From Planctomycetota bacterium (GTDB lineage Bacteria; Planctomycetota; Phycisphaerae; UBA1845), in NCBI GenBank assembly GCA_024278775.1, contig JAJRSP010000064.1:1-64000 (forward strand): a DNA stretch of 64,000 nt, written 5' to 3'. Made by a program: the position numbers and the translations under genes. Position 1 is the first letter of the stretch, and each line of letters begins with the position of its first letter. Below are positions 31,980 to 36,501 of this stretch, in pieces. The notes beneath the pieces were generated by a model. That model was not told where the DNA came from, searched no databases, and saw only the letters and a list, made by a program, of their open reading frames with translations.

Positions 31980-32993
31980 TTAACCCGACGCCCCAGGTTC
32001 TTTGGTCCGATCGAGCACGGCTACCGTACACACGCTTGTCGGTAAGGCCGCAATAAAACGCTCTGCGTCGAACGGTCGGTACAGACGCACTTTCAGCAAA
32101 CCCACACGGGCCCCCGTGCCCGTAAGATATTCGATCGTTTCCTGCACGGTGTCGGAACCCGAACCCATCATCACGATGACCCGATCCGCATCCGCAGCAC
32201 CGACATAATCGAAAAGATGATACGCCCGGCCGACACGCTCCGCATAAGCATCCATCACACGCTGGACGATCCCCGGGCAATCACGATAAAACGGATTGAC
32301 GGCCTCACGCGCCTGGAAAAAAACATCCGGGTTTTGGGCCGAGCCGCGCATCACCGGACGCTGCGGGGTCAGCCTGCGATCGCGGTGACTGAGTACCAGC
32401 TTCGGGTCGATCATCGCCCGCAAATCGTCATCACTCGGAAGCTTGACTTTGGTAACCTCGTGCGAAGTGCGGAACCCGTCGAAAAAATGCAAAAACGGCA
32501 CGCGCGATTCGAGCGTGGCCGCGTGGGCAATGGTCGCCAGGTCGGCCACCTCTTGCCCATTGCTCGAAGCGAGCATGGCGAATCCGGTGGTTCGAGTGGC
32601 CATCACATCGCCGTGATCACCAAAAATGGAAAGGGCATGTGTGGCAATGGTACGCGCGGACACATGAAACACCGTCGGGGTGAGTTCCCCGGCGATCTTG
32701 AACATGTTGGGGATCATCAGCAGCAGGCCTTGCGAAGCGGTGAAGGTGGTGGAGAGCGCCCCCATCTGCAACGCACCATGCACGGCACCGGCCGCCCCAC
32801 CCTCACTCTGCATGACCGAGACGCTTGGGACGGTTCCCCAAATGTTCTTGACGCCCTGCACCGACCACTCATCCGCCCATTCGCCCATCGTAGAGCTGGG
32901 GGTGATCGGGTATATCGCAATCACTTCACTAAGACGATGTGCAATGTGGGCAGCCGCTTGGTTACCATCAATAGCAATAATTGTTGTGCCCAT
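31980..32993 (-). CDS. nifJ: NifJ N-terminal part (PFOR domains I and start of II)
   Basis: 337 residues from MGTTIIAIDGNQAAAHIAHR. It contains the pyruvate-binding N-terminal domain with AIYPITPSSTMGEWAD, VMQSEGGAAGAVHGAL and TTFTASQGLLLMIPNMFKIAGE, and the beginning of the transketolase C-like domain, ending in VAVLDRTKEPGASG before the TAA. A frame is open 22 codons upstream, but the ATG at 32993 gives the conserved N-terminus. A sigma54-type promoter lies about 115 bases upstream. Alone this fragment could not be active. Confidence 0.85.
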   Translation of the reverse strand: MGTTIIAIDGNQAAAHIAHRLSEVIAIYPITPSSTMGEWADEWSVQGVKNIWGTVPSVSVMQSEGGAAGAVHGALQMGALSTTFTASQGLLLMIPNMFKIAGELTPTVFHVSARTIATHALSIFGDHGDVMATRTTGFAMLASSNGQEVADLATIAHAATLESRVPFLHFFDGFRTSHEVTKVKLPSDDDLRAMIDPKLVLSHRDRRLTPQRPVMRGSAQNPDVFFQAREAVNPFYRDCPGIVQRVMDAYAERVGRAYHLFDYVGAADADRVIVMMGSGSDTVQETIEYLTGTGARVGLLKVRLYRPFDAERFIAALPTSVCTVAVLDRTKEPGASG

Positions 32994-33106
32994 GAATATT
33001 CTGTTCCGTTTCGATCTAGTATTGCGCGGTTGCTGCCTCGAGGAAGGCGTCGTAACCACGCCGGAGTGTCACCGACCACGGGAATGTCCCGACCCGCCGG
33101 ATGACT

Positions 33107-33122
33107 TGCAAGGCTTGTTCCA
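33107..33122 (-). promoter_or_regulatory. Sigma54-type -24/-12 promoter upstream of nifJ
   Basis: On the minus strand TGGAACA-N4-TTGCA matches the consensus TGGCACG-N4-TTGCW, with the invariant GG and GC at the required spacing and two mismatches in the -24 element. It would initiate near 33096, leaving a leader of about 100 bases before the nifJ ATG. It follows a candidate terminator of the regulator gene, and the adjacent regulator is of the sigma54-activator type, which makes the site credible. Confidence 0.65.
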
Positions 33123-33170
33123 TAATCCGCGTAATCACCGCGAAATAGGCCTGAAGGCCGGAGAATAGAT

Positions 33171-33191
33171 AAAAAACGACGTTTCCGCGTC
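33171..33191 (-). terminator. Short hairpin with U-tract after the response regulator gene
   Basis: GACG and CGTC (33191-33188 and 33181-33178, minus strand) enclose a six-base loop, extended by a possible G-T pair, and are followed by six T residues. The stem is short, but its position 14 bases after the regulator stop and before the nifJ promoter fits a terminator separating the two units. Confidence 0.45.
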
Positions 33192-33204
33192 ATCTATGCG
33201 GGCA

Positions 33205-34575: not shown

Positions 34576-35780
34576 GATGCGTTGGCACCTCCTACGGCAT
34601 CCGATTCGGCGGGCAAATCCACGATGACACACGTGCCCCGTCCCGGTTCACTGTCCAGCTCGATGCGCCCGCCGTGCGCTTCTACAATCCGTCGGCAAAT
34701 GGAAAGCCCGAGTCCCGTCCCCTTGGCTTTCGTGGTGAAAAACGCATCGAAAGCCTGGGCGGCCACCTCCGGCGTCATGCCGGCACCTTCGTCTTCAACG
34801 ACGAGTCGCACGGTATCGGTACGCTTGGTCAGCATGACACGGACCGTGCCCTTGTGCTTGGAGGCATGGGCAGCGTTGATGATGAGGTTCATGGTTAGCT
34901 GCTGGAGTTGGCCGTCATCGCCTTGTACCGTGTGGTCTTTGGCCCGAGAGGGTCCTTTCAGTTGAACCCCCCGAAGGGCAGGTTCCAGGCTCAGTGCGTT
35001 GAGCACATGAGACACGATCTCGTCCAGGTCCACACGTCCGAAGCGAGGCGGAATGGGTCTGGCATATTGCAACAAGTCCTTCACGGTGGCATCCAGACGC
35101 TTGATCTGTTCCATGATTTCTTTGGCGATCGGACGGTGCGGGTCGTCGACACTCATCGAATCGCGCATGATCTGGATCGCACCGCTGATACCCGCAAGCG
35201 GATTCTTGATTTCATGGGCGAGCGAGGCGGCCAGCTGTCCGATCTTTGCGAGGTGTTCCGCCCGCGTCAGCTTTTCCTCTACCGCGATACGCTCCATAGA
35301 TCGTACTTCGTCCGAATACCCTTCCTTATAGCTTTCGAGCATCGTGGCCAGATCGAGCATGAGCAGCTTATGGATCGCCGAAGCGATGGCCTCGCTATCG
35401 TCGAGCGGGAGCGCTTGAATCAGGGGGGCCAATTCTGCCCAGATGATTTGGATCCCCAACACCATGAAGTGCTGGTCGAGTCCGGCCCGCGCGTGGGCCT
35501 CACCGATATGCAGACTGGATTCGAAATGCTCCATCTCAAATCGGCCCACGAGGACGCGAGACAACCAGGTACTCAAGAGAACTCGCTGCCGAGCGAGCTG
35601 GGCCTCGCCGCCCGTGAAGATCGCTGCCGATTCCGGATCGGAGAGTAGTTGGTCATAGAACCGATCCACCACACGAGGCACGAGGGTTCCCACATAAGGT
35701 GCCAGTCGGGCGATGAGGGCCGCATCTCGGTCGGTGAAATCGACCCGACTTTTCATGCTCTCCAGAGTGACGTTTTGCAT
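34572..35780 (-). CDS. Globin-coupled sensor histidine kinase
   Basis: 402 residues. The N-terminal 150 form a protoglobin/globin-coupled-sensor domain: VDFTDRDAALIARLAPYVG, VDRFYDQLLSDPE and the F-helix HIGEAHARAGLDQHFMV with His96 as the expected proximal haem ligand. A signalling linker (VEEKLTRAEHLAKIGQLAA) leads to the H-box with His189 in SLAHEIKNPLAGI, then the ATPase domain with NLIINAAHA (N), DEGAGM (G1) and GTGLGLSICRRIVE (G2). No membrane segment is present, so it is cytosolic. Haem globin sensors bind O2 (also NO or CO). The ATG at 35780 has AGGA eight bases upstream; the frame is open a little further. Confidence 0.9.
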   Translation of the reverse strand: MQNVTLESMKSRVDFTDRDAALIARLAPYVGTLVPRVVDRFYDQLLSDPESAAIFTGGEAQLARQRVLLSTWLSRVLVGRFEMEHFESSLHIGEAHARAGLDQHFMVLGIQIIWAELAPLIQALPLDDSEAIASAIHKLLMLDLATMLESYKEGYSDEVRSMERIAVEEKLTRAEHLAKIGQLAASLAHEIKNPLAGISGAIQIMRDSMSVDDPHRPIAKEIMEQIKRLDATVKDLLQYARPIPPRFGRVDLDEIVSHVLNALSLEPALRGVQLKGPSRAKDHTVQGDDGQLQQLTMNLIINAAHASKHKGTVRVMLTKRTDTVRLVVEDEGAGMTPEVAAQAFDAFFTTKAKGTGLGLSICRRIVEAHGGRIELDSEPGRGTCVIVDLPAESDAVGGANAS

Positions 35781-36032
35781 ACGCGTTATCCTAACGGCGT
35801 CGCGGCAGGGACGAAACCGCCACACCATCCCAAACGAGTATGATGTGCCTCAGCCCAAGACTGTGAAATGTTATGGATATCCCTCCCCATTCGTCATCAC
35901 GTCCATTCATTAGAAATGCACAACTTCCAGGTATGTCACGTCCTCCGGAAGGAACTGGAGGAACGCCCGATAGCTAATATGGCGCGATTCCAAGCCTCCA
36001 TCTGAAGAAATAACACCATTATTGAATGTTTC

Positions 36033-36048
36033 TGGCACGCCGTCTGCC
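36033..36048 (+). promoter_or_regulatory. Sigma54-type -24/-12 promoter for the receiver gene
   Basis: TGGCACG-N4-CTGCC: the -24 element is a perfect match, the GG and GC are at the correct distance, and only one T of the -12 TTGC is changed. It would start about 20 bases before the ATG at 36079. It faces away from the kinase/regulator pair, which encodes a sigma54 activator. I see no clear enhancer palindrome upstream, only CTTCCAG and CTGGAGG as an imperfect inverted pair near 35927-35962. Confidence 0.68.
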
Positions 36049-36078
36049 AATGGGAACTAGACGGAAGGGACCGCGTCT

Positions 36079-36501
36079 ATGGCTGAACCGGAAGAACGAA
36101 TACCGTCAACGCCTGAAGCGGATGTCTCATCCCGGCCGCCTTCCCCCTCCGACGTGTTACTCGTCGCAGAACCGGATTCGCTCCTCCGCTGGTCTCTGGC
36201 CACCTATTTCGGCTCCATGTTTCAGGTTCATGCCGTCGGAACCGCTCAGGCCGGTATGGAAGTACTCGATAAACAGGCGGTGTCGGCCATGATCGTGTCG
36301 GACGCCCTGGATTCGTCCGGTCTGGTTCAAATGGAGTTGCAGGCCCTGGGCCTCAATGCCCATGTCCGCATCATACGCATCGTCACATCGCTCAGGTCGG
36401 CTCGGACAGACTCCTACGCCACAGCAACACTGGAAAAGCCCTTTGAACTGTCAGCGTTAGCCAAGCTCCTGGTCACCCAGACCGCAAAGCATTCCAGCTA
36501 G
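36079..36501 (+). CDS. Stand-alone degenerate receiver-domain protein
   Basis: 140 residues: a Ser/Pro-rich N-terminus of about 24 residues, then one receiver-like domain without an output domain. It begins VLLVAEPDSLLRWSLATYF, close to VLIVEDEQLIRWSL of the neighbouring regulator. Receiver Thr (RIVTS) and Lys (LEKPFEL) are kept. The acidic pocket is E-P-D instead of E-D, and the phospho-acceptor loop (MIVSDALDSSG) is one or two residues shorter than normal, so phosphorylation is uncertain. It is read from a sigma54-type promoter, divergent from the kinase gene. It could titrate the kinase or give feedback on the circuit. Confidence 0.75.
   Translation: MAEPEERIPSTPEADVSSRPPSPSDVLLVAEPDSLLRWSLATYFGSMFQVHAVGTAQAGMEVLDKQAVSAMIVSDALDSSGLVQMELQALGLNAHVRIIRIVTSLRSARTDSYATATLEKPFELSALAKLLVTQTAKHSS

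Follow-up and report, generated by a model that had tools for sequence, protein, structure and literature searches.

The window analysed here is a 64,000-nucleotide stretch from a Planctomycetota bacterium (contig JAJRSP010000064.1). It carries a gene for a globin-coupled histidine kinase that overlaps the gene for an NtrC-type sigma54 activator, with nifJ, encoding pyruvate:ferredoxin oxidoreductase (PFOR), following on the same strand and a small receiver gene diverging from the kinase. An initial annotation, made from the sequence alone, had read this group as a circuit in which the pair switches PFOR on or off by gas level through -24/-12 promoters. The genes have been compared with those of relatives, the closest of which is contig L001, from Planctomycetota bacterium isolate Dive96_bin1.127. 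The features are as follows.

34572..35780, minus strand: globin-coupled histidine kinase, 402 residues (Pfam matches, alignments)
33205..34575, minus strand: NtrC-type sigma54 activator, 456 residues, with a receiver (Asp53), an AAA+ domain with a GAFTDA loop and a Fis-type helix-turn-helix
36079..36501, plus strand: small atypical single-domain receiver, 140 residues, divergent from the kinase
36033..36048, plus strand: -24/-12 site before the small receiver, TGGCACGCCGTCTGCC (family conservation, L001 alignment)
33107..33122, minus strand: -24/-12 site before nifJ, TGGAACAAGCCTTGCA (L001 alignment, nifJ comparison)
31980..32993, minus strand: nifJ, first part, up to an in-frame TAA at 31980-31982 (TIGR02176 positions 2-333)
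29433..31979, minus strand: nifJ, remaining part, frame unchanged past the stop; listed open reading frame 29433-31952 (TIGR02176 positions 345-1167)
28432..29436, minus strand: dihydroorotate dehydrogenase-like (DHOD-like) gene, overlapping the end of nifJ (NF005741, over cut-off)
26684..28399, plus strand: malic enzyme, convergent neighbour (homologues near the kinase-regulator pair in some relatives)
33174..33195, minus strand: weak hairpin with a U-tract, 3' of the regulator (no counterpart in L001)

The order on the minus strand is thus kinase, regulator, nifJ and DHOD-like gene, and the first two share 4 bases (34572-34575). Pfam domains in both proteins agree with their initial description as a globin-sensor kinase and an NtrC-type regulator. 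In the kinase, Protoglobin (residues 6-155, 4.2e-28), HisKA (181-241) and HATPase_c (287-392) are all matched over cut-off, and the phospho-histidine is His189. His96, initially only a candidate for the proximal haem ligand, aligns with His99 of the globin-coupled kinase AfGcHK (PDB 5ohe) and is conserved in all but one of the 82 kinases aligned (81 of 82), while Tyr42 aligns with the distal Tyr45 and is kept in 73 of 82. The distance from the conserved Tyr151 at the end of the globin to His189 is 38 residues in all 82 proteins. The regulator matches Response_reg, Sigma54_activat and HTH_8. Its Asp53, Thr81 and Lys103 are at least 95% conserved in the family, as is its sigma54-contact loop, which reads GAFTDA where the usual form is GAFTGA. 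The best NCBIfam matches are AtoS for the kinase and AtoC for the regulator, both under the curated cut-offs.

The pair is conserved among relatives. The kinase is found at E < 1e-80 in 87 of 297 relatives of G001 (our own count of the listing). The 81 loci compared consist of 80 that were fetched together with L001, which stands for G001; six genomes (G007, G009, G038, G045, G093, G112) were left out. The regulator lies directly downstream of the kinase in 79 of these 81 loci from Planctomycetota relatives, the two exceptions being L070, where the contig ends, and L079, which has no regulator there. The L001 kinase is 78% identical to that of the window, and the gene order is the same: receiver, kinase, regulator, nifJ, DHOD-like gene. 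The regulator gene of L001 (L001:11203-12573) is broken into two reading frames, probably by an assembly frameshift. Matches to kinase, receiver and PFOR on contigs of equal size (24324, which is L001; 9467; 62917), and to kinase and PFOR (11940), suggest that other close relatives share this linkage. The label 'Candidatus Binatia bacterium' is attached to one kinase fragment and to one receiver; the other names seen among kinase matches are Phycisphaerae or Planctomycetota. Against plasmids, the regulator reaches an identity of at best 45% among the matches listed.

Sites of the -24/-12 type were scored with weights of our own making, based on the consensus TGGCACG-N4-TTGCW. A score threshold of 12.5 did not discriminate, and was raised to 19 after that scan and before the nifJ comparison. 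The two sites named by the initial annotation, at 33122-33107 (minus) and 36033-36048 (plus), do have GG and GC at N10 spacing, and are the top two of 14 matches above threshold in the window. Both are kept in L001, amid flanks that align poorly. Before the small receiver, a site is present in 26 of 28 cases, the window among them, compared with 0-3 for wrong spacings. Before the kinase, it is present in 31 of 81 (wrong spacings 1-6), and before the regulator, which serves as negative control, in 4 of 80 (wrong spacings 1-8).

For nifJ, the site is found in 13 of 15 cases where the gene lies near the pair and in 32 of 40 where it lies elsewhere in a kinase-bearing genome, the latter set taking in four genomes with partial kinase matches (G009, G053, G102, G112). 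Among kinase-free genomes it is found in 3 of 20 nearer relatives and in none of 29 farther ones (one of 30 farther loci gave no nifJ start), with wrong spacings giving 0-4 per set; G111 is scored as kinase-free here, though a regulator orthologue lies at the edge of one of its contigs. Overall, this amounts to 45 of 55 kinase-bearing cases against 3 of 49 kinase-free (Fisher 5e-16; 8e-4 within one kinship range, both tests being uncorrected for phylogeny). The gene for sigma54 itself, rpoN, is found in relatives, including 29 of 33 kinase-free genomes, so a missing sigma54 is no explanation for the difference. A close orthologue of the regulator, on the other hand, occurs in only one of the 33, namely G111. 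The wiring proposed initially is therefore supported at the level of sequence: the sites are conserved, rpoN is present in relatives, and the nifJ site goes with the pair even where nifJ is not adjacent to it.

A motif search on 71 promoters returned a 16-bp dyad, TGcGnnAwwTnnCgCA, with a log-likelihood of 188 compared with 45 and 39 in two shuffles. It lies mostly 70-190 bp upstream of the -24 element. Loci totalling 1.23 Mb contain it 51 times, compared with 5-6 times after shuffling, and for 45 of these sites a -24/-12 match is no more than 300 bp away. Upstream of the kinase, the dyad reaches at least 13 bits in 36 of 80 cases, but in none of 79 shuffles and none of 81 stretches within the kinase gene; these hit counts come partly from DNA that is the same as, or overlaps, the 71 training promoters. 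Some nifJ and receiver promoters have one dyad in common. Within 400 bp of nifJ in kinase-free genomes, the same scan gives 2 of 20 for nearer and 0 of 29 for farther relatives.

A strict form of the dyad was scanned across 52 kinase-bearing and 52 kinase-free genomes selected by us. It gives 113 matches in the former (reversed pattern 38) and 47 in the latter (reversed pattern 23), and is thus about twice as dense where the kinase is present. With 113 matches against 47, it is too unspecific to be used alone as a genome-wide predictor. A sigma54 site lies within 260 bp of 18 of the 48 distinct places checked, compared with 206 of 2500 random points (the count is 19 of 50 less two places counted twice, L228/L242 and L221/L254); for G013 and G054 the figure is 11 of 20. 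The kinase-free genome G082 has five strict matches.

The genes behind both a -24/-12 site and a dyad in relatives form a putative regulon. Those identified over curated cut-offs include VorB, two NfnA-like reductases, aspartate-ammonia ligase and HypC, and those under the cut-offs are PorC/D-like, NapH-like and CoA-transferase proteins. Proteins with CBS domains also appear, one confirmed by Pfam and the rest judged by eye. In G013, where the best TIGR02176 match is weak (3.7e-41), the site and dyad stand before a PorC/D-like gene instead. Besides nifJ and the receiver, the putative targets are mostly ferredoxin-linked or fermentative. The aspartate-ammonia ligase (L252:1767-2894, in G013) is an odd member of this set. 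A -24/-12 site is found before malic enzyme in 2 of 8 cases, which is no more than suggestive; in L042 and L084 such a site is present and a strong dyad is absent.

On the basis of these observations, we consider it probable that the pair is an autoregulated, haem-gas-responsive sigma54 two-component system of Planctomycetota that controls oxygen-labile metabolism. The globin kinase would phosphorylate the adjacent regulator directly. The regulator would then bind the upstream dyads, which have the sequence TGcGnnAwwTnnCgCA in much of the group, and activate, at -24/-12 promoters, nifJ, further genes of ferredoxin-linked and fermentative metabolism and the small receiver, as well as, in some of the species, its own operon. 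Most likely, the kinase would be on when its haem is oxygen-free, so that PFOR, an oxygen-labile enzyme, would be made at low oxygen, and the small receiver, induced by the circuit itself, would act as a feedback brake on the kinase. Of the initial proposal that PFOR is switched by gas level, the comparisons support the wiring; haem binding and gas sensing are predicted from the conserved haem-pocket residues and homology, with oxygen as the putative gas.

Among the closest known systems is NmpRSTU of Myxococcus xanthus (PMC6211767, PMC11841059). It too has a globin kinase, NmpU, with a haem-ligand His96, and an NtrC-type sigma54 regulator, NmpR; it shares a receiver-only protein (NmpT), autoregulation, a gene for a CBS protein in the regulon, and a low-oxygen logic. 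As expected of an Nmp-type system, kinase and regulator lie in one locus here (79 of 81). The Nmp operator is likewise a dyad, of differing sequence (GCGCA-N5-TGCGC; PMC11841059). The Nmp targets described there are a high-affinity oxidase, hemN and hemerythrin, and not PFOR. NmpU is described as not phosphorylating NmpR, the signal being inverted by a hybrid kinase, NmpS (PMC6211767), unlike the direct transfer proposed here, where the genes for kinase and regulator are adjacent. Our own profiles revealed no NmpS-like receiver-kinase hybrid in the 81 loci, to which the search was confined. Homologues of nmpSTU are reported in Planctomyces sp. SH-PL14 (PMC6211767), so this type of kinase is already in print for the phylum. 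In its main text, a survey of the sigma54 regulon (PMC12316311) contains none of the words 'globin', 'nifJ' or 'ferredoxin', and no publication on this pair, its PFOR link or such a circuit in Planctomycetota was found in the open-licence literature. ZraS is the best match among solved kinase domains; compared with AtoS/AtoC and ZraS/ZraR, the sensor here is a globin, and the targets differ.

In about one third of the loci, the gene for the small receiver is located upstream of the kinase and diverges from it. The initial annotation called its gene receiver-only. Pfam gives no match for the window protein, and of its family of 29, only 6 proteins match Response_reg (PF00072), with E values no higher than 0.01; the receiver identity comes instead from structure prediction. 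AlphaFold2 generates one receiver fold that lacks helix 4 (mean pLDDT, the predicted local distance difference test, 86.9), and Foldseek matches the predicted fold to receivers, with a best E of 3e-6. With the profile of the small receiver, the best-scoring longer match is the adjacent regulator in 68 of 77 loci, and helix 1 reads LLRWSL in the small receiver where the regulator has LIRWSL. The second acid of the metal site is proline in 24 of 29 members. Because the helix-1 motif of the regulator is kept while one metal-binding acid and helix 4 are missing, the protein more likely docks on the kinase as a brake than provides a second output at the level of transcription. Of the two roles initially suggested for it, second output or feedback element, the latter thus appears the better one.

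The alternative is a small receiver that functions as a phosphate sink or second output, similar to NmpT, rather than a brake that acts without being phosphorylated. This is quite possible, although it is not the reading we favour. Active-site residues are widely retained (Asp75 in 25 of 29, Thr103 in 22 of 29, Lys120 in 29 of 29), and NmpT has been proposed to be a phospho-sink (PMC11841059). NmpT has two receiver domains, compared with the one atypical domain of 140 residues here. The proline at the metal site and the absence of helix 4 in the predicted structure speak against a working sink.

A second alternative concerns the sign of the response. In AfGcHK, from Anaeromyxobacter sp. Fw109-5, His99 and Tyr45 form part of the haem pocket, the phospho-histidine is His183, and it is the oxygen-bound form that is active, the Fe(II) form being inactive (PMC8697598). 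Since the pocket residues are the same here, O2, CO or NO might turn this kinase on, with its genes being activated in the presence of gas, for instance as a response to NO or to renew damaged enzyme. We regard this as unlikely. Most of the putative targets belong to ferredoxin-linked and fermentative metabolism, and PFOR is oxygen-labile, so the identity of the targets points to a kinase that is on at low oxygen. Given such targets and no NmpS nearby, the kinase itself would have the opposite sign to AfGcHK. A structural basis for this may lie in the linker, since linker register is able to set the sign of a kinase, as in engineered kinases. The stretch from the globin-end tyrosine to the phospho-histidine is about 26 residues in AfGcHK (Tyr157 by alignment, His183 from PMC8697598) compared with 38 here, a difference of about 12 residues, which is not a whole number of heptads and is a further point against an AfGcHK-like sign.

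We therefore put forward, tentatively and as a speculative extension of the circuit described above, a sign-inverted globin kinase. The fixed 38-residue stretch would make the kinase oxygen-off, and the pair would achieve directly what in Myxococcus takes a third kinase; a sigma54-induced decoy receiver, docking on the kinase and phosphorylated poorly or not at all, would limit the circuit, which would run a low-oxygen regulon in many Planctomycetota. One sensor fold would then be used in two wirings, a direct pair with a 38-residue linker and a relay with about 26 residues as in AfGcHK and Nmp, and the role of linker register in setting the sign becomes directly testable. The comparison also yields a candidate regulator, together with a DNA motif and a list of putative targets, for low-oxygen metabolism in this phylum. 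There is a parallel in FixL/FixJ, which likewise consists of a haem kinase with its cognate regulator, FixL being active without oxygen, the sign proposed here. Unlike this pair, FixL senses through a PAS domain, and FixJ is not known as a sigma54 activator. FixL/FixJ oxygen sensing is mentioned in PMC8697598.

It is also conceivable that the nifJ promoter is a genuine sigma54 promoter served by another activator, the pair's control being limited to itself and the receiver. At least 14 regulator-like matches occur in each of the kinase-free relatives tested, which makes further sigma54 activators probable; the nifJ site is present in three genomes without the kinase (G108, G021 and G028), and many nifJ upstream regions have no dyad. 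G108 may have a missing contig, its site and 8-base flank being identical to those of G101. Against another activator, the nifJ site tracks the pair, including at non-adjacent nifJ genes, and some nifJ promoters share their dyad with receiver promoters. We consider this explanation rather improbable.

Several observations weigh against the proposed oxygen-responsive circuit as a whole. Wrong spacings reach threshold 12-18 times in the window, which alone does not place the sites beyond chance, as the wider comparison does, and the association of the nifJ site with the pair, as noted, is uncorrected for phylogeny. A strong nifJ site is absent in 10 of 55 kinase-bearing cases, and present in the three kinase-free genomes. 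The dyad was not found in the promoters of the window or L001, and of the nifJ genes only 4 of 15 near the pair and 14 of 40 elsewhere have one that reaches 13 bits within 400 bp. No strong site stands before the window kinase, the best match there (18.1) being the receiver site read backwards, as it is in L001. One kinase, that of L079 (G057), has no adjacent regulator; AfGcHK has the opposite sign; and the nifJ of the window is interrupted. With regard to the missing dyads, the recognition helix of the window and L001 regulators has Thr443 and Met448, and the dyad is rarer in loci with either residue (3 of 14 and 4 of 18 respectively), which hints at a clade-specific motif. That the sites are merely chance matches in GC-rich DNA, or reflect common descent only, is very improbable: wrong-spaced matches are as frequent as correct ones within the window and the comparison lacks a phylogenetic correction, but correct spacing is far above wrong before receivers and nifJ, the distance from nifJ site to start varies over 40-355 bp, and the L001 flanks align poorly.

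The interruption of nifJ, an in-frame TAA at 31980-31982 on the minus strand, was not mentioned initially. The two parts match consecutive ranges of TIGR02176 (2-333 and 345-1167), in a family whose chain is about 1170 residues long. In L001 nifJ is unbroken, with glutamate at the position of the stop, and the five nearest PFOR proteins among the matches listed are single chains of 1185-1186 residues. The stop is thus either an assembly error or a recent loss.

The DHOD-like gene also lies 3' of nifJ in L001 and other loci, and is probably on the nifJ transcript. As a sigma54 target in its own right it was rejected, with a site in 1 of 10 cases, which does not exceed wrong spacings. The hairpin with a U-tract that was initially placed between the regulator and the nifJ promoter is present (33195-33174), but as a meaningful part it was discarded, being little better than shuffles (z -0.78) and absent from L001. 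It is worth adding that the receiver site is nearly palindromic (36033-36049, TGGCA-N7-TGCCA), and that the small receiver is followed on the same strand by a gene for an MBOAT (DltB-like) acyltransferase (36629-38023, plus).

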